Shown: positions 11,706 through 51,097 of the stretch, one piece after another
Layout: every line of letters starts with the position of its first letter
Numbering within the stretch: position 1 is the first letter of the stretch
Notes under the pieces: model-generated
Told to the model about the DNA's origin: nothing
What the model saw: the letters and a program-made list of their open reading frames with translations, nothing else
The model's database searches: none
Assembly: GCA_021730285.1 (NCBI GenBank)
Contig: CP082962.1
Coordinates: 1,922,001 to 1,986,000 of the forward strand
Origin: Desulfovibrio sp. JY
GTDB lineage: Bacteria; Desulfobacterota; Desulfovibrionia; Desulfovibrionales; Desulfovibrionaceae
Length of the DNA stretch: 64,000 nucleotides
Reading direction: 5' to 3'
Made by a program: the position numbers and the translations under genes

Positions 11706-13181
11706 TCAATACATCCCGAGCTTCTGTTCGGAAAGGCTGATGAAGATGTTTTTGCGCTGGCTGTAGTGGTCGAGCATCATCAGGTGGTTTTCCCGGCCGA
11801 TGCCCGATTTCTTGTAGCCGCCGAACGGGGCGTGGGCCGGCAGCACGTTGTAGGTGTTGACCCACATGCGGCCGGTTTCGATGCCCCGGGCCACGCGCAG
11901 GGCCCGGTTGATGTCCCGGGTCCAGACGCCGCCGGCCAGGCCGTATTCGTTGGCGTTGGCCAGGGCCACCACCTCGTCCTCGTCGCGGAAGCTGATGACG
12001 CTGGCCACCGGGCCGAAGATTTCCTCGCAGGCCACGCGCATGGTGTTTTTGACGTGGGTCAAAAGCGTCGGCTGCATGAAACAGCCCTTGGCCAGCGGGC
12101 CGTCGGTGATGCGGCTGCCGCCGTAGGCCACGGTCGCGCCCTCGTTTCGGGCCACGTCCACGTAGGCCAGGATCTTTTCCAGCTGGCGGGCGTTGACCTG
12201 GGACCCCATCTGGGTGTCCGGCTCCCAGGGCAGGCCTACCTTGACCTTGGCGAAAGCCTCCGTGGCCGCCTCGATGAAGCGGTCGAAGATGGCTTCGTGC
12301 ACGAACACCCGCGAGCCGGCGCAGCACACCTGGCCCTGGTTGAAGAGGATGCCGAGCTGGAGCCCTTCGATGGCCTTTTCCCAGGGCGCGTCGGGGAAGA
12401 AGATGTTGGCCGACTTGCCGCCGAGTTCCAGGGTGGCGGGAATGAGCTTTTTGGCCGCGGCCTCGGCCACGGTGTAGCCGACCTCGGTCGAGCCGGTAAA
12501 GGCCAGCTTGGAAAAGCCCGGGTGGTTGAGCATGGCGTTGCCGGTGGTCGAGCCTTTGCCGGTGATGACGTTGACCACGCCGGCGGGCAGCACCTGGGCC
12601 ATGAGTTTGGCCAGTTCCAGGATGGACAGCGGCGTTTCGGTGGAGGGCTTGATGACCACGCAGTCGCCGGCGGCCAGGGCCGGGGCCAGCTTCCAGGCGG
12701 CCATGAGCAGGGGGAAGTTCCAGGGGATGATCTGGCCGACCACGCCGAGGGGCTCGCGCAGGATGATGCTCATGGTCGTCTCGTCGATCATCGTGGCCTG
12801 GCCTTCCTCGGTGCGCACGGCGGCGGCGAAGTAGCGGAAATGGTCCGAGGAAAGCGGCACGTCGGCGCCCTTCGTCTCGCGGATGGGCTTGCCGTTGTCC
12901 ATGGTCTCGACCAGCGCCAGATGGTCGGCGTTGGCGTCGATGAGGTCCGCGATTTTAAGGAGCATGGCCGAGCGTTGCTGGGGCGAGGTCTTTTTCCAGG
13001 CCGGGAAAGCCTTCCAGGCGGCGTCGACCGCCTTGTCGATGTCGTCGAGACAGGCGTCGGCGCAGTGGGCCAGGACTTCGCCGGTCGACGGATTGGCTGT
13101 GGCGAAGGTCTTGCCGCAGCCGCTTTCGACCCAGGCTCCATTGATGAAAAGCTTGTAACGATCGTCAAGATGCAGGTTCAT
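11706..13181 (-). CDS. NAD(P)-dependent aldehyde dehydrogenase
   Basis: This is a 491-residue soluble enzyme of the classical ALDH superfamily that oxidises an aldehyde to the acid. Visible landmarks: IIPWNFPLLMAAWKLAPAL (cofactor-binding Asn), IKPSTETP, FTGSTEVGYTV, the general-base Glu in LELGGKS, the catalytic Cys in FNQGQVCCAGSRVF, and EEIFGPVASV. Its closeness to betaine/acetaldehyde-type ALDHs is evident, but the substrate cannot be fixed; in sulfate reducers growing on ethanol, acetaldehyde is a reasonable guess. A 65-residue Cys protein follows in the operon. The 380-nt upstream region is promoter-containing in principle, but I found no convincing sigma-54 site. Confidence 0.93.
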   Translation of the reverse strand: MNLHLDDRYKLFINGAWVESGCGKTFATANPSTGEVLAHCADACLDDIDKAVDAAWKAFPAWKKTSPQQRSAMLLKIADLIDANADHLALVETMDNGKPIRETKGADVPLSSDHFRYFAAAVRTEEGQATMIDETTMSIILREPLGVVGQIIPWNFPLLMAAWKLAPALAAGDCVVIKPSTETPLSILELAKLMAQVLPAGVVNVITGKGSTTGNAMLNHPGFSKLAFTGSTEVGYTVAEAAAKKLIPATLELGGKSANIFFPDAPWEKAIEGLQLGILFNQGQVCCAGSRVFVHEAIFDRFIEAATEAFAKVKVGLPWEPDTQMGSQVNARQLEKILAYVDVARNEGATVAYGGSRITDGPLAKGCFMQPTLLTHVKNTMRVACEEIFGPVASVISFRDEDEVVALANANEYGLAGGVWTRDINRALRVARGIETGRMWVNTYNVLPAHAPFGGYKKSGIGRENHLMMLDHYSQRKNIFISLSEQKLGMY

Positions 13182-25127: not shown

Positions 25128-25148
25128 GGGAAGAGCCGAGGGGAAGAG

Positions 25149-25311
25149 CCGGGGGAAAACCTTTCTTGCAGAAAGGTTCTTCCCCCGGACCCTCTTTCCA
25201 AAGACTCTTCGTTGTGGCTGGATGGTATCGTTGCTACTGTTGTCGTTATAAAGTTTAGGAAGGGGAGAGCGCGAGAGGGGAGAACCCTTTTCAAAGGGTT
25301 TCCCCTCTCGC
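25149..25311. repeat. Composite palindromic repeat, copy 1 (A then B)
   Basis: Type A hairpin at 25149-25188 (CCGGGGGAAAACCTTTC and its complement, loop TTGCA), spacer with CTTTCCAAAGACTCTTC and AAGTTTAGGAAGGGGAGA, then type B hairpin at 25270-25311 (GCGAGAGGGG arms around ACCCTTTTCAAAGGGT). It lies between the tsaB 3' end and the remnant upstream of fliC. The B hairpin is 27 nt from the tsaB stop and can act as its terminator. Confidence 0.85.
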
Positions 25312-25337
25312 ATTTTTCCTCTCCCTTCCATAAGCAT

Positions 25338-36044: not shown

Positions 36045-36054
36045 AAAATGCGAA

Positions 36055-36203
36055 CCGGGGGGAAACCTTTCTTGCAGAAAGGTTCTCCCCCCGGCCCCCC
36101 TTTCCAAAGATTTTTAACGATAACAGTTTGTCACCGTTAGAAGTTTTGGGGAGGGGAGAGCGCGAGAGGGGGACCCTTTTTTCAAAAAGGGTCCCCCTCT
36201 CGC
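36055..36203. repeat. Composite palindromic repeat, copy 3 (A then B)
   Basis: Type A hairpin 36055-36094 (CCGGGGGGAAACCTTTC, loop TTGCA), spacer containing CTTTCCAAAGATTTTT and AGTTTTGGGGAGGGGAGAGC, type B hairpin 36162-36203 (GCGAGAGGGGGACCC with its complement). It lies between convergent genes: 10 nt after ahbC and 43 nt before the 3' end of the minus-strand 84-residue gene. It likely terminates both. Confidence 0.88.
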
Positions 36204-36246
36204 ATTCGCGCTGGCGAAAAATCTGCGGCACGGCTGCCGCGGGTGG

Positions 36247-45852: not shown

Positions 45853-45999
45853 GCGAGAGGGAAAACCCTTTTCGCGCGCTCTCTTCCCAAAAATTTCAAC
45901 CGTTATGCGATGTGGAACGACAGGCTCTTGTTTTCCGTGAAGAGTCTTTGGAAAGGGGGTCTGGGGGGAGAACCTTTCTGCAAGAAAGGTTTCCCCCAG
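45853..45999. repeat. Composite palindromic repeat, copy 4 (B damaged, then A; inverted)
   Basis: Order and orientation are reversed relative to copies 1 and 3. The B part is a half-palindrome: GCGAGAGGGAAAACCC runs straight into CGCGCTCTCTTCCC, lacking the second arm. The spacer TTTTCCGTGAAGAGTCTTTGG follows, then the intact A hairpin 45961-45999 (CTGGGGGGAGAACCTTTC and complement, loop TGCAA). It lies between divergent genes, so here it is in the 5' leader of the MerR-type gene, 35 nt before its start. Confidence 0.8.
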
Positions 46000-46033
46000 T
46001 GGCCTTGTATAAAATAGCTCCGGGGAATGCGCC

Positions 46034-46663
46034 GTGTCGGAAAATCGTCTGTACTCCGTGGCCGCCATCGCCAAGCTGCTGGATATGCCGGAATCCACGC
46101 TCCACTATTGGAAAAACCGCTTCGACGAGGTGCTGCCGAGCGTCGGGCGCGGGCGCAGCAAGCGGTTTCGGCCCGAGGCGGTGGAGGTCTTCCAGGCCAT
46201 CGGCCGGCTGCTCGGCCAGGGGCTCTCGGCGGCGGACGTGCGGGCCGAACTGATGCGGCAATTTCCGGTCAACGTGGCCCACGAATCGGCCGCCGAGGCG
46301 GGGCTTTCCCCTGTCGCCGCGCCCGCTTCGCCCGCAACGACCATCACTGCGGGCGAAGGGGCGTTTCACGGCGGCGAGCCGGCCGTCATGGCCATGGCCG
46401 CCGGTATCGGCACGGAAATCGCCCGGTCGATCATGGCCCAGTTCCAGCAACATTTTCCGCCGGTTCAGCCGGCCCTGCCCGAGGAGACGGCCGAGGGGCT
46501 GCGGGCGCAACTCGAGGCGGTGCGCGGCGAAAACGCCGCCATGGCCGAGAAGATGCACCTGCTGGAGGCGGAACTTGTGCGCCTGCGCAAGGATCGCCGC
46601 GAACTGGAAAACTACCTCGTGGACAAGATAAACGCCCTGCGCCGCGCCGACGAGACGTCGTGA
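46034..46663 (+). CDS. MerR-family transcriptional regulator
   Basis: This is a 209-residue DNA-binding regulator. Residues 5 to 75 are a MerR-type helix-turn-helix with wing (YSVAAIAKLLDMPESTLHYWKNRF, RFRPEAVEVFQAIGRLLGQG). The middle is Ala/Pro/Gly-rich; the C-terminus is a coiled coil (AEGLRAQLEAVRGENAAMAEKMHLLEAELVRLRKDRRELENYLVDKINAL). No metal-binding cysteines are present, so it is not a metal sensor. GTG start at 46034. Its 5' leader contains a palindromic repeat. The target is unknown. Confidence 0.88.
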   Translation: MSENRLYSVAAIAKLLDMPESTLHYWKNRFDEVLPSVGRGRSKRFRPEAVEVFQAIGRLLGQGLSAADVRAELMRQFPVNVAHESAAEAGLSPVAAPASPATTITAGEGAFHGGEPAVMAMAAGIGTEIARSIMAQFQQHFPPVQPALPEETAEGLRAQLEAVRGENAAMAEKMHLLEAELVRLRKDRRELENYLVDKINALRRADETS

Positions 46664-46749
46664 GTGGGGGGGGAGAGGAAGAGGTGCGAGAGGGGGACCC
46701 TTTTTGGGAAAAGGGTCCCCCTCTCGCGCTCTCCCCTCCCAAAAACTTT

Positions 46750-47782
46750 CCTGGTTACGCACAATCCTCAGCCAGTTTGAGCAGTCTGTAAGGCATGGGC
46801 GGCGTCCGCAAGGAGACCCAGGCCAACCGCGTGAGCATTGTCGCCAAGTCATAACGGCGATTGAATCGATATCCGAACGAGGCCAGATAGCGCGACACAT
46901 GTTTGCCTCTCACGGCACGATATGTTCCCAATAATGCTGACTTCACATTGCCAAGCATGGTGTTGACCCACTTAAATACTGAGTCCTGCACAGCCTTGCG
47001 GCCACTGTCTTGAACGGGTTCGTGCCGACAGCCCGCAGCCTGGACCTCGGAAAAACATGGCAACCGGTCCGTCACCACCAATGTCCCGGAACGCAAGATT
47101 TTCTGAGATGCCCGCTGCACCTCATTACGCCGAAAACCTTTGACTCGGCACAGCTTCATCTTGTGTGGTTGTCCACTTTTTGTCGTTTCAACTGCCGCAA
47201 TAAACGGAATTTTTCCTGGGGCACCACGTCCACGTTTCCCACCACGTCGTTTACCGCCAAGGTAAGCATCGTCCATCTCTACGCGGCCGGTGAGACGTTG
47301 CTGGTGTTCACGTTCGAGCATGACCTGCATCAGCTTGTGAGACATTTTCCAGGCCGTCGTTTGCGTGACACCAAGTCTGCGGGCTAATTCGACACTGGAG
47401 ATGCCGCCCTTACTTTGAGTGAGGTGATAAATGGCGCGGAACCACTTCTTGAGGGGAACTTTGGTGGAAGCGAAGATTGTGCCAGCGGTCACCGAAGTCT
47501 GCGTACGGCAATGTGAGCACTGAAAGAGCCGTCGCCTGCCAACAATAAGCAGCGAGTACTTATCCCTGCCGCAAATTGGACAAACGAATCCTTCGGGCCA
47601 ACGCCATTGCACGAGGTGTGCCCAGCATTTCTCCTCGGTGCCGAATTGCGCCTCAAACGCATCTTCGCTCATACCCTTCTGGAATTGCACAATGTTTCTT
47701 GCCAGATCCAGCGCCTCCAACCCCCAGAAAATACACAAAACAATGACCGCTGACAATTAGCTGATGATTGTGTGTAAGCAGG
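46750..47782 (-). mobile_element. Insertion sequence, IS1595 family
   Basis: The element is 1033 bp. Ends are imperfect inverted repeats: the left end reads CCTGGTTACGCACAATCCTC and the right end, complemented, CCTGCTTACACACAATCATC (mismatches at about 3 of the first 20). Direct repeats of 8 bp, AAAACTTT, flank it at 46742-46749 and 47783-47790, the duplication size expected of IS1595. It carries one transposase. Base composition is visibly lower in GC than its surroundings, so it was acquired. It has no passenger gene. Confidence 0.93.
46755..47756 (-). CDS. IS1595-family transposase
   Basis: This is a 333-residue transposase. It has an N-terminal zinc ribbon (CPICGRDKY...FQCSHCRTQTSV), a helical region (KKWFRAIYHLTQSKGGISSVELARRLGVTQTTAWKMSHKLM) and the DDE-type catalytic core with Asp in VEMDDAYLGG and Asp in VVTDRLP. 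The third position reads NTMLGNVK, an Asn variant known in some IS1595 groups. No stop or frameshift is seen, so it may still be active. The start is uncertain: TTG at 47756 gives the full frame, but ATG 47672 and other codons between them are possible. The stop lies within the left inverted repeat. Confidence 0.92.
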   Translation of the reverse strand: MSAVIVLCIFWGLEALDLARNIVQFQKGMSEDAFEAQFGTEEKCWAHLVQWRWPEGFVCPICGRDKYSLLIVGRRRLFQCSHCRTQTSVTAGTIFASTKVPLKKWFRAIYHLTQSKGGISSVELARRLGVTQTTAWKMSHKLMQVMLEREHQQRLTGRVEMDDAYLGGKRRGGKRGRGAPGKIPFIAAVETTKSGQPHKMKLCRVKGFRRNEVQRASQKILRSGTLVVTDRLPCFSEVQAAGCRHEPVQDSGRKAVQDSVFKWVNTMLGNVKSALLGTYRAVRGKHVSRYLASFGYRFNRRYDLATMLTRLAWVSLRTPPMPYRLLKLAEDCA

Positions 47783-47894
47783 AAAACTTTTAACGGTTAC
47801 GGGCGGTAAGACGACAATCGGTTGTTTTCCGTGAAGAGTCTTTGGAAGGGGGGGGCCGGGGGGAGAACCTTTCTGCAAGAAAGGTTTCCCCCCG

Positions 47895-48115
47895 GTCTTC
47901 GCCCTGTGGGGGATGCAAATGGGGAAGGCCGCTTGCCCGGCTTGCGCCCGGCTCACGGCCTTCCTTTCCTCGAGGACTATCGCCTGGTCCGCGAGGCCGC
48001 CCCGACGCCGCGGAAACGTCGGTTCGCCTTCCGGTTGACGATGGCGGCCCAGCAGACATCGCTTAAACGATGGGTCCCGATGGGCTTGGGTGGGTCGCTT
48101 TTCGGCGACTGGCGC
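47895..48115. other. Intergenic region with a hairpin
   Basis: No gene is seen. A perfect 9-bp stem (GGAAGGCCG/CGGCCTTCC, 47922-47963) lies 150 nt beyond the end of the minus-strand gene at 48116; the plus strand continues TTTCCTC. It is possibly a terminator for transcription leaving the IS/MerR region. Confidence 0.4.
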
Positions 48116-49117
48116 CTAAACGTCCATGATCTCCAGATAGACCAGGGTCTGGTTGAGAAGCTGATAGGCGATCTCGCCGTAGGTGACCGGCCCGGTGAAG
48201 GGATCGGTCTTTTTCCCTTCCAGTTCGGAATACAGGTAATTGAGGATGCAGTTGCAGGAGAAGGCCACCCGGGAGGATTCGATGGAGCATTCCTTGTTCA
48301 GGCGGCTGTTGAATTCCTTGACGTAATCCGACACGGGCTTGGCGTGCTTGTAGCGGATGCCGGAGAAGACCGGGGCGTAGAACTTCACCTGGCCTTCCAC
48401 CTCGTCGACATCCTGGAAGCTGATGTTGACCATGGCTCCGTAGTAGTCGGCCACGAGCGGCAGCTTGGTGTCGAGCTTGTTTTTCACGATGTAGGCGGCG
48501 AAGTTGCGCTTTTCGCCGTTGACCATCACGTCCTTGGCGGCAAAGTCGTCGGAAGTGAAGGTCAGGATGTCGCCGTCGCCCTGTTCGAACAGGTTGAGAA
48601 TGCCGATTTCGGCCACCTTGCCCTCGGGCAGCTGGGCCTGGAGCACCATGGCTCCTTCCTCGCGCACATCGCCGGTGCGGCCGTTGATGATCTTGGGGGT
48701 CTTCTTGCCCAGGTCGGAGAGGTGAACGCCCGCGACCCAGCCGATCAGCGGCCGGATGCCGAAATCTTTATAGTTTGGGGCGTTGAGGGCAAAAGACAGG
48801 TGCGTCTTGCTGGCCGCCGGGATGATGATGAAGCTGAATCCGTGCTTGGGACCCTCGGCGTAGACGCGGGCCAGGCTGGTCTCGTCGTAGGTGACGATCT
48901 CGATGGAGGTGACGATGTCGGTGATGTCCGTGGCGCAGATGAGCTCACGGCTGGACATGCCGCCCTTGTCGCTGGAAATGAAGTACGGAATCGTGCCGCC
49001 GATCCAATCGCCCTGGGGCAACTGGCGCAGGGCATCCTCGTCGCCGGCCAGAAGGAGCTTGCGTCCCGACTCGATCAACTGCCTGACATCAGCTACTTTG
49101 GAAATAGTTTGTCGCAT
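48116..49117 (-). CDS. Unrecognised 333-residue protein of a two-gene operon
   Basis: This is a soluble protein of 333 residues with no signal peptide. It starts RQTISKVADVRQLIESGRKLLLAGDEDALRQLPQGDWIGGTIPYFISSDKGG, then a long beta-rich stretch (GFSFIIIPAASKTHLSFALNAPNYKDFGIRPLIGWVAGVHLSD). The C-terminal third is more helical and has two cysteines (AFSCNCILNYLY). The WIGGTIPYF loop and the GWVAGVHL segment look like functional motifs, but I cannot name a family. AAGGGGAAAG precedes ATG 49117. It follows a 77-residue gene by 14 nt, so the two are cotranscribed. Confidence 0.85.
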   Translation of the reverse strand: MRQTISKVADVRQLIESGRKLLLAGDEDALRQLPQGDWIGGTIPYFISSDKGGMSSRELICATDITDIVTSIEIVTYDETSLARVYAEGPKHGFSFIIIPAASKTHLSFALNAPNYKDFGIRPLIGWVAGVHLSDLGKKTPKIINGRTGDVREEGAMVLQAQLPEGKVAEIGILNLFEQGDGDILTFTSDDFAAKDVMVNGEKRNFAAYIVKNKLDTKLPLVADYYGAMVNISFQDVDEVEGQVKFYAPVFSGIRYKHAKPVSDYVKEFNSRLNKECSIESSRVAFSCNCILNYLYSELEGKKTDPFTGPVTYGEIAYQLLNQTLVYLEIMDV

Positions 49118-49131
49118 ATCGCTTTCCCCTT

Positions 49132-49365
49132 CTAGCCGAAGATGGTTTTCAGATCGTCCTGAACGCTTGGCATATTCACATTGTTGGCGAAAATAGCATA
49201 GAGTTGATCAACACTGGCGCCGATGTTGTCCGGCGAAGGGTCTTCCTTCACCGCTCGCGTCAGGCGGCCAAGCAGGATCTTGGCGGCAAGGAATTTGAGC
49301 TGGTAGGTTTTCTTTCCCGTCACAATTTCTTGCCAGGCTTTGTTGCTCTTGCTCGGTACATCCAT
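49132..49365 (-). CDS. Small helical partner protein (77 residues)
   Basis: AAGGAGG lies 6 nt before ATG 49365, a strong start. The protein is helical and charged (AWQEIVTGKKTYQLKFLAAKILLGRLTRAVKEDPSPDNIG, then DQLYAIFANNVNMPSVQDDLKTIF). It is immediately upstream of the 333-residue gene and probably its binding partner or regulator. No family recognised. Confidence 0.82.
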   Translation of the reverse strand: MDVPSKSNKAWQEIVTGKKTYQLKFLAAKILLGRLTRAVKEDPSPDNIGASVDQLYAIFANNVNMPSVQDDLKTIFG

Positions 49366-49482
49366 ATTCGCCTCCTTCTTTATGCGGCAGCACGATCTTG
49401 CGGCAGCGGGAATAATCGTCGCCTGCAACCCGGCCACGGTGACCCACGACCCTTCATGACCCGGCTGGAATCGGCGTATTGC

Positions 49483-49650
49483 GTGACGAAACGTCCGTGC
49501 AGGCGTCAATTAAGCAAAGATCGCACCACGGGAAAAATATCAAGAAACCCACAGGTTATTGAAAGAGTACGAGAAATTGCGGAAGAATACAAGACAAAAC
49601 AGGGAGTTTCCCGTGTTCCAAAAGCCTGGTTGGAGCGTAAAATTCATTGA
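49483..49650 (+). CDS. Possible 55-residue basic protein in an AT-rich patch
   Basis: A plus-strand frame from GTG 49483 to TGA 49650 encodes a basic, helical peptide (NPQVIERVREIAEEYKTKQG, then VSRVPKAWLERKIH). The composition is clearly AT-rich compared with neighbours. There is no good ribosome-binding site. It could be a true small gene, or the 3' remnant of an acquired one. Confidence 0.3.
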   Translation: MTKRPCRRQLSKDRTTGKISRNPQVIERVREIAEEYKTKQGVSRVPKAWLERKIH

Positions 49651-49672
49651 AATAATGAATTATTTCATAATG
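49645..49672. other. AT-rich inverted repeat
   Basis: TGAAATAA, 4 nt, TTATTTCA is a perfect 8-bp inverted repeat (49648-49667), extended by CATT/AATG on the flanks. It lies in the AT-rich patch upstream of the 77-residue gene and over the stop of the possible small ORF. It could be an operator for the two-gene operon or a weak terminator. Confidence 0.4.
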
Positions 49673-49839
49673 TTAAAATGATGGGGAGAATTGGGGCAAT
49701 AAAAAGTCGCGACGGGTCAAAAGGAAACAGGGTTCGCGTCACCTAACCGACCATGAATTTTCAGCAAATTTTCTTTGCAAAAACTGTCGGATGTGCGGAC
49801 ACGGCCAACGGCCTCGCGTGTCCGTGAACCCGCCTACGC

Positions 49840-50892
49840 CTAGCGTACCGTGCGCTGCAGCAGCACCATGTCGGCCAAAACGAGCAGCACCATGGCCCGA
49901 AGCACCGGCACCACGCGCGGAATGGCGCTGCGGTCATGCCGGCCGCCCACCACGATCGACGCCGGATTGCCGGCAATGTCCGTGGTGCGCTGGGACACGG
50001 CGATGGAGGGGATGGGCTTGACCGCCGCCCGCACCACCACGGGTTGCGCATTGGAGATGCCGCCGAGGATCCCCCCGGCATGGTTGGATTCGGGCGGGGT
50101 GACTATGGGATCGTTATTGGCGGAGCCGGTCAGGCGCGCGGCGGCAAACCCGTTGCCGATCTCCACGCCCTTGACCGCGCCGACGCCCATGAGCGCATAG
50201 GCGAGCCTGGCGTCGAGCTTGTCGAAGACCGGTTCGCCAAGCCCGGCCGGAACGCCCGTGGCCGTGACCTCCACGATGCCGCCCAGGCTGTCGCCCGAAG
50301 CCATGGCTTCCTTGGCCCGGGCCTCCCAGGCCGGCACGATGGCCGGGTCCGGGGCGCAAAATGGCCTGTCCGCCGCGCCGGCAATGTCCACGATGTCGGC
50401 CGGGATGCCGCCGAATTCCACGGTGTAGGCCGCGACCTCGATGCCGCAGCCGGTAAGGAACGCCCCGGCCACTCCCCCGCCGGCCACCCTGGCCGCCGTT
50501 TCCCGGGCCGAGGCCCGGCCGCCGCCGCGATAATCGCGCCGGCCGTACTTGGCCAGATAGGTGCCGTCGGCATGGCCCGGGCGCAGCAGGTTCTTGGCTT
50601 CCTCGTAGTCCCGGGAACGCTGGTTGGTGTTCTCGATCACGAAGCCGATAGGCGTGCCGGTGGTTGCGCCCTCGAAAACGCCGGACAGCAGTCGCACGGC
50701 GTCGGGTTCCTTGCGGGTCGTGCCGGTAAGCCCCCCGGCCCCGGGCCGGCGACGGTCCAGGTCGCGCTGGATAGTAGTGGCATCGAGCGGCACCCCCGGC
50801 GGACAACCGTCCACCACGCCGCCAAGGGCCGGGCCATGGGACTCGCCATACGTGGTCAGACGAAAAACAGTGCCAAAGGTATTCCCGCTCAT
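49840..50892 (-). CDS. aroC: Chorismate synthase
   Basis: This enzyme uses reduced FMN to convert EPSP to chorismate, the last shared step to aromatic amino acids. The protein is 350 residues. Signatures are TYGESHGPALGGVVDGCPPG at the N-terminus, RPGHADGTYLAKYG near residue 105, RGGGRASARETAARVAGG around 120 to 137, and GGRHDRSAIPRVVPVLRAM at the end. ATG 50892 lies inside a 7-bp inverted repeat that also brackets the AGGA ribosome-binding site. Confidence 0.97.
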   Translation of the reverse strand: MSGNTFGTVFRLTTYGESHGPALGGVVDGCPPGVPLDATTIQRDLDRRRPGAGGLTGTTRKEPDAVRLLSGVFEGATTGTPIGFVIENTNQRSRDYEEAKNLLRPGHADGTYLAKYGRRDYRGGGRASARETAARVAGGGVAGAFLTGCGIEVAAYTVEFGGIPADIVDIAGAADRPFCAPDPAIVPAWEARAKEAMASGDSLGGIVEVTATGVPAGLGEPVFDKLDARLAYALMGVGAVKGVEIGNGFAAARLTGSANNDPIVTPPESNHAGGILGGISNAQPVVVRAAVKPIPSIAVSQRTTDIAGNPASIVVGGRHDRSAIPRVVPVLRAMVLLVLADMVLLQRTVR

Positions 50893-50912
50893 AAGAGTTC
50901 CTATTTTATGAG
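50888..50912 (-). promoter_or_regulatory. Inverted repeat over the aroC start
   Basis: CTCATAA (50888-50894) and TTATGAG (50906-50912) form a 7-bp stem whose arm includes the aroC ATG and whose 11-nt loop holds the AGGA ribosome-binding site. This could modulate translation initiation. Alternatively it is chance. Confidence 0.3.
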
Positions 50913-50920
50913 AAGGAAGT

Positions 50921-51075
50921 GCGAGAGGGGAAACCCTTTAAAAAGGGTTCTCCCCTCTCGCGCTCTCCCCTTCCTAAATTTTCTACTATTGTCTGTGACT
51001 CACCGTCACTATTTATAAAAGTCTTTGGAAAGGGGGTCCGGGGGGAAACTTTTCTTCAGAAAAGTTTCCCCCCGG
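50921..51075. repeat. Composite palindromic repeat, copy 6 (B then A, inverted)
   Basis: Type B hairpin 50921-50961 (GCGAGAGGGGAAACCCTTT and complement), spacer with CGCTCTCCCCTTCCTAAAT and AAAGTCTTTGGAAAGGGGG, type A hairpin 51038-51075 (CCGGGGGGAAACTTTTC and complement). It lies between the 3' end of the DegT-type gene and the aroC start, and the A hairpin is 22 nt from the DegT-type stop. Confidence 0.88.
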
Positions 51076-51097
51076 TTCCTAACTCCTCCCCCTCCCG

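Follow-up and report, generated by a model that had tools for sequence, protein, structure and literature searches.

What kind of unit is formed by the two genes at 48116-49365 of the window, the whole stretch of 64,000 nucleotides that was analysed here, and what may it do for the cell? On the minus strand, a small gene (49132..49365; start at 49365, stop codon ending at 49132) encodes a 77-aa helical protein and is followed after a spacer of 14 nt by a large gene (48116..49117) for a 333-aa protein. The sequence-only reading had described genes of 77 and 333 residues with this spacing, and both open reading frames were confirmed at their positions, as were the loops GDWIGGTIPYF and GWVAGVHL in the large protein and the strong ribosome-binding site of the small gene (AAGGAGG before ATG), which is retained in 12/12 aligned orthologous upstream regions. 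A second copy of the whole pair (81% and 77% identical to the window pair) lies at 4,612,951-4,614,192 of the same 4.69-Mb genome, and relatives exist in many phyla, so the pair is more than a chance arrangement. That reading also took the pair for an unrecognised operon and a candidate for an undescribed system. The pair is indeed a genuine conserved unit, but its large protein belongs to Pfam DUF6976 and has a FIST-like predicted fold; the family was thus already catalogued, while its nature and its partner were not, within the searches named below. The explanation that we prefer, at a probability of roughly two in three, is a cytoplasmic sensor unit, in which a FIST-fold DUF6976 protein would sense a small molecule together with a dedicated 77-aa partner or adaptor, under a sigma-54 promoter and with its output via a separate signalling protein.

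The large protein is a full-length member of DUF6976 (PF22396), covering positions 2-320 of the 321 in the profile (E 1.3e-137, 458.4 bits against a cut-off of 27). This family without assigned function was its sole strong match, when a known housekeeping family had been the point to check. A structural model made from 67 aligned sequences (pLDDT 93.5, pTM 0.92) had the FIST domain of human FBXO22 as its top solved match (Foldseek E 1.8e-3, probability 0.97, TM 0.42), though Foldseek gave no match at E 0.001 or better. Comparison of residues 1-333 with this domain gave Z 12.7 and rmsd 3.8 over 231 aligned residues, and the next fold classes were chorismatase (Z 7.9) and cyanuric acid hydrolase (Z about 6). 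The same top match (Z 12.2) came from another model, which was built for the natural fusion L066 from Chloroflexota. A Dali search with the FBXO22 FIST domain itself is also reported to have returned chorismatase and cyanuric acid hydrolase (PMC11185555). The predicted fold of DUF6976 is FIST-like, the criterion of this fold (three repeats, pseudo-threefold) being judged from Z against the next class on the predicted model only, while membership of the Pfam FIST family fails on score: FIST_C reaches 15.9 bits with the window protein, below the Pfam cut-off of 28.5, and FIST_N was not among the matches listed. Even so, 16/67 DUF6976 members reached FIST_C at E values of 1 or lower, the best being 0.0012, against 2/67 for the next family. 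Profile-profile comparison of DUF6976 with 25 true FIST proteins gave a collinear alignment that fell short of significance (probability 1.1%, E 0.048); its score of 21.6 was higher than those of all 30 column shuffles (largest 20.5). Searches of solved structures by sequence gave nothing with the large protein and one match, at E 0.94, with its profile. In the open-access literature searched, where subscription papers are sparsely covered, DUF6976 and PF22396 were unmentioned.

For the small protein, the comparison covered 83 DUF6976 copies at the genome loci of the best 80 of 501 relatives, which represent the nearer part of the family. Co-occurrence of the pair had been a point to check, and the small gene was adjacent or fused in 72/83 of these copies: its own profile found it directly upstream on the same strand of 58 and in one open frame with DUF6976 in 14. 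The fusions comprise 11 from Chloroflexota, one from a spirochaete and two from Desulfobacterota, of which single cases may be sequencing errors. After removal of sequences more than 80% identical, 47 adjacent, 10 fused and 9 partnerless copies were left (n=66). Of 149 genomes of the window's family, 30 carry DUF6976; the small domain occurs in 29, each of which is one of those 30. It was absent within 1.5 kb of 30/30 true FIST loci. Searches of Pfam, NCBIfam, PADLOC and PHROG with the 77-aa protein found nothing up to E 1, and among 58 relatives of it any given family was hit by two at most. Its profile picked up nine chains of solved structures, none convincing; five of these were helical proteins of designed or synthetic origin. 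In the L066 fusion model the small domain is predicted as one short and three longer helices.

Eleven of the 83 copies lack the small gene, and five fusions of DUF6976 to kinase or PAS domains in Elusimicrobia are among these. This suggests that the small protein may couple the sensor to its target and become dispensable when both form one chain. One partnerless locus does not fit the coupling idea, having a porin upstream and no evident signalling fusion (L089), and L093, L106 and L159 are also without the small partner. The small domain occurs in other settings too. An extra, lone copy lies in a genome of the window's genus (L165 1991-2557), with no DUF6976 in 7 kb of sequence. It is C-terminal in an Anaeromyxobacter protein (L078 455-1624) whose N-terminus is Roadblock/LC7-like by eye, with no Pfam match, and it follows an unidentified N-terminal region in three Betaproteobacteria proteins (L010 10823-11944, L113 3525-4217 and L119 7142-7957), those of L010 and L113 giving no Pfam match. 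It stands twice in tandem in Ideonella, and a second small-gene copy lies just downstream of DUF6976 in L051 (1499-3110), L012 and L022.

Upstream of the pair, conservation among 12 orthologous loci peaks at a predicted sigma-54-type promoter, TGGTGCGATCTTTGCT (GG-N10-GC; 49513..49528, minus strand), which begins 163 nt before the start of the small gene. It is the most conserved 16-column window (97% identity against a mean of 64%) among windows starting in alignment columns 1-340, a range that leaves the ribosome-binding site outside. The site agrees with 10/12 positions of the sigma-54 -24/-12 consensus, and GG-N10-GC is retained in 12/12 orthologues. Sites with at least 10/12 consensus positions were found in 22/113 upstream regions on the coding strand and in 0/113 on the opposite strand, the 113 including some loci fetched twice, and the whole window has five such sites on its two strands together. 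An rpoN-type gene is present in the genome. For the second genomic copy of the pair, a 10/12 site of its own was discarded as a candidate, since the four other copy-2 loci of the alignment do not share it. The second conservation peak is a block of the form CTGTTTCYTTTTGACYC-N~15-TTGCCCCAATT (49681..49732, minus strand), whose spacing from the start is alike in several orthologues and which may be an activator-binding site. Between these elements, an AT-rich near-palindrome, TGAAATAATGAATTATTTCA (49648..49667), matches itself on the opposite strand, is operator-like and is by eye partly retained in some orthologues. It belongs to the AT-rich patch with an inverted repeat that had been noticed before: the G+C content of 49500-49749 is 41.6%, while the remaining 250-base windows across 46000-51000 range from 53 to 74%. 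An open reading frame on the plus strand of this patch (49456-49647) has stops in L017 and L122, is partial elsewhere and is nearly intact in L120; being interrupted or partial, it was treated as conserved DNA and not as a gene. All Rfam matches were below the gathering score, mostly to hairpin-driven miRNA models.

The idea of an accessory module between mobile and AT-rich DNA did not survive comparison with other genomes. The gene for chorismate synthase, aroC (49840..50892, minus strand; Pfam E 8e-130), lies upstream on the same strand in 12/12 aligned orthologous loci of Solidesulfovibrio, and the AT-rich patch is part of the conserved upstream region. Downstream, an IS1595-type insertion sequence (46741..47788) with imperfect terminal inverted repeats and a transposase (46755-47756; Pfam E 7.5e-34) does interrupt a dispersed repeat, as had been proposed; the two halves of this repeat stand close together at 36054-36204 and 25140-25325. 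Among L001-L157, this transposase was not found at the locus of any other genome, and the element is a private insertion. Thus, with a syntenic locus, a conserved sigma-54-type promoter and no such transposase at those other loci, the module was rejected; aroC synteny, the promoter-like site and the private insertion together make the locus an old resident of the genus. The dispersed repeat itself is intergenic and has two strong hairpins; complete or partial copies occur at several places in the window (25140-25325, 36054-36204, 45889-45997, 46671-46740 with 47830-47895, and 50910-51076). Among the best 80 of 501 relatives, those most similar to the large protein, at up to 91% identity, belong to Solidesulfovibrio and to a 'Desulfovibrio sp.' assembly. 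More widely, DUF6976 is patchy, occurring in 4/395 genomes of the phylum sample and ranging over many phyla, including Asgard archaea, Chloroflexota and proteobacteria.

FIST was reportedly described as a sensory domain by Borziak and Zhulin in 2007. In five proteins from four Elusimicrobia loci, DUF6976 is the N-terminal domain, the position of a sensor, and kinase or PAS domains come after it: HisKA-HATPase in L086, a PAS pair in L090, L109 and one L100 protein, and PAS-HisKA-HATPase-REC-REC in the other L100 protein. Elsewhere, a REC-HD_5 regulator lies directly upstream of DUF6976 (L053), a protein kinase precedes it (L099), and in Desulfopila aestuarii a row of genes encodes DUF6976, then a true FIST protein and two kinases that carry receiver domains (L056 8001-14407). 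NosP, a FIST protein, is reported to act on a kinase and to share its operon with an HD-GYP-type regulator (PMC12570481). No kinase is adjacent to the pair in the window. A strong neighbourhood bias to two-component genes was considered and rejected, as response regulators made up 13/121 near genes against 6/95 far genes, which is weak; these numbers come from our own crude gene calls, and three very long proteins of 98 were dropped from the far set. Apart from DUF6976, the same genome encodes a true FIST protein (L135, C1:332465; FIST_C E 4.1e-28); what comes after it in the same frame resembles by eye a SpoIIE-type phosphatase.

In the sensor unit that we prefer, the compact FIST-fold protein would recognise a small molecule, and the 77-aa protein would serve it as a dedicated partner and adaptor, with the sigma-54 promoter driving both in step. 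The ligand-bound complex might then modulate the activity of a signalling protein that is encoded by a separate gene, in the manner of NosP and its histidine kinase. The description of the unit as a FIST-fold protein plus a dedicated small partner has good support. The conserved pairing, the mutual fusions, the fusions of DUF6976 to kinase and PAS domains and the promoter-like site were all found by computation, and the fold is a prediction; the sensor function of DUF6976 is what we infer from them, and a physical complex, an adaptor role, ligand binding and an output in trans are likewise suggested by these findings.

What might be sensed? C288, N289, C290, G314 and E315 are invariant in 112/112 distinct sequences covering them, partly by selection, because the CNC motif was one of the two patterns used for fetching L040-L119 (a second set of loci was fetched by HMM). 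C288 and the Gly-Glu align with C299, G334 and E335 of the FIST alignment, where the Cys and the Glu are invariant and correspond to Cys326 and Glu362 of FBXO22 (numbered via the FBXO22 match); this matching rests on the non-significant profile-profile alignment and on the motifs. The Arg position of the FIST signature SCxxR is Ile (108) or Val (4) in the 112 DUF6976 sequences, and the Cys and Gly-Glu are kept in 112/112. For FBXO22, a reversible hemithioacetal of Cys326 with aldehydes has been proposed from cryo-EM density and mutants, and E362A is reported to have abolished drug-induced ubiquitination (PMC13316043). This aldehyde chemistry comes from synthetic degraders. The FBXO22 FIST domain recruits proteins, and one report describes no obvious ligand pocket in an earlier structure and BACH1 binding that is insensitive to haem (PMC11185555). 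As a tentative choice of ligand, which is more probably wrong than right, we favour an aldehyde, or another electrophile, that would be bound at Cys288 next to Glu315. A broader and more speculative proposal is that FIST-fold proteins, including DUF6976, are ancient reversible covalent sensors of carbonyls: a Glu-activated Cys would form a hemithioacetal with metabolic aldehydes, and the 77-aa partner would relay this to kinases, matching alcohol and aldehyde oxidation to the aldehyde load. Among open-access literature titles on FIST, FBXO22, aldehydes and Desulfovibrio, none puts forward an aldehyde-sensing role for DUF6976 or bacterial FIST.

Because of this Cys-Glu lead, genes of aldehyde and alcohol redox enzymes were searched for. 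AFOR, Fe-ADH or ALDH lay within 1 kb at 11/83 loci (best 80 of 501 relatives), against a mean of 3.6 by random placement with 0/2000 as high, in a test that was post hoc and in which 7/11 near matches are AFOR in Chloroflexota. The second set had 3/38 such loci, all of one genus, against a mean of 0.92 with 66/2000 as high; judged by length, it shares nine contigs with the first set, none carrying the three near loci. When the two genes closest on each side at 27 loci were tallied by Pfam without selection, Fe-ADH made up 3/104, compared with 2/121 in the first near-gene tally; in the far set it was not among the 25 families listed, and one Aldedh was present. Far matches to Fe-ADH, AFOR and ALDH also occur in the placement search. 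True FIST loci had a near ALDH in 1/30 (1.5 kb flank searched), and no zinc ADH was found among the DUF6976 neighbours. On a Sphaerotilus plasmid, an iron alcohol dehydrogenase directly follows the pair. The window has an aldehyde dehydrogenase gene at 11745-13133, about 35 kb from the pair.

Other readings of the same facts have to be weighed. A haem-based sensor of NO or haem like NosP or CdpA, with a Cys or His as iron ligand and the small protein coupling it to a kinase, would agree with reports that the characterised bacterial FIST proteins bind and respond to haem or NO (PMC12570481, PMC8846402), with the possibility that the invariant C288 and C290 bind iron, and with the REC-HD_5 neighbour in L053, which resembles the nosRPK layout. 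However, the NosP model NF041558 matched the large protein at E 0.054 with 12.6 bits against a cut-off of 450, and no His is invariant in the 67 aligned members (H106 is nearly so), and we regard a haem sensor as rather unlikely. The pair could instead be an enzyme of the 'Toblerone' fold, like chorismatase or cyanuric acid hydrolase, with the small protein as a subunit; these classes are the next structural matches, and aroC is next door in Solidesulfovibrio. Yet the FBXO22 FIST domain scores clearly higher, aroC was found only at Solidesulfovibrio-group loci among L001-L157, and the kinase fusions fit a sensor. Cyanuric acid hydrolases use Ser-Lys catalytic pairs, and no Ser or Lys is strictly invariant in the 67 members (K142, S233 and S287 are at 90% or more). 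We consider an enzyme of this kind improbable.

The arrangement of a small gene before a larger one, the patchy spread across phyla and the three plasmid records with DUF6976 relatives among 72,556, one copy being beside CcdAB, would also suit a toxin-antitoxin or phage-defence pair. Against this, neither protein matched PADLOC at E up to 1, a pattern scan of viral_contigs matched five stretches but no relative, synteny and promoter are conserved in the genus, and the two proteins are naturally fused in some relatives; a PHROGs search gave only a match at E 0.16. We therefore consider such a pair very improbable, and return to the sensor unit of a DUF6976 protein and its small partner. With it, a family without assigned function now has a probable fold and role, and also a partner that none of the searched libraries contains. 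The question of what FIST domains sense also becomes a specific one, namely whether the invariant Cys-Glu pair binds aldehydes or other electrophiles. Such binding would be relevant to the reactivity of Cys326 in human FBXO22, and, if the carbonyl-sensor proposal were true, the same Cys-Glu pair would be the site at which aldehyde drugs recruit FBXO22.

Finally, the unit can be placed among known systems. The Pfam record of DUF6976, of which the window protein is a full-length member, gives no function, and the small partner, the fold and the promoter are additions of this study. Chorismatase and cyanuric acid hydrolase share the overall topology (Z about 5 to 8), but their similarity is lower than that of FIST, and DUF6976 is without a strictly invariant Ser or Lys. 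FIST itself (PF08495 FIST_N and PF10442 FIST_C, including FBXO22) is alike in the predicted fold and in the aligned Cys and Gly-Glu, whereas the window protein is under the Pfam cut-off, DUF6976 has Ile or Val in place of the signature Arg, and it possesses the extra invariant C290 and a dedicated small partner, seen at 0/30 FIST genes. Although its score is far under the NosP cut-off (NF041558), DUF6976 resembles NosP of nosRPK as a stand-alone FIST-like protein that probably acts on a kinase in trans, and in L053 it likewise has a regulator, of the REC-HD_5 type, directly upstream.
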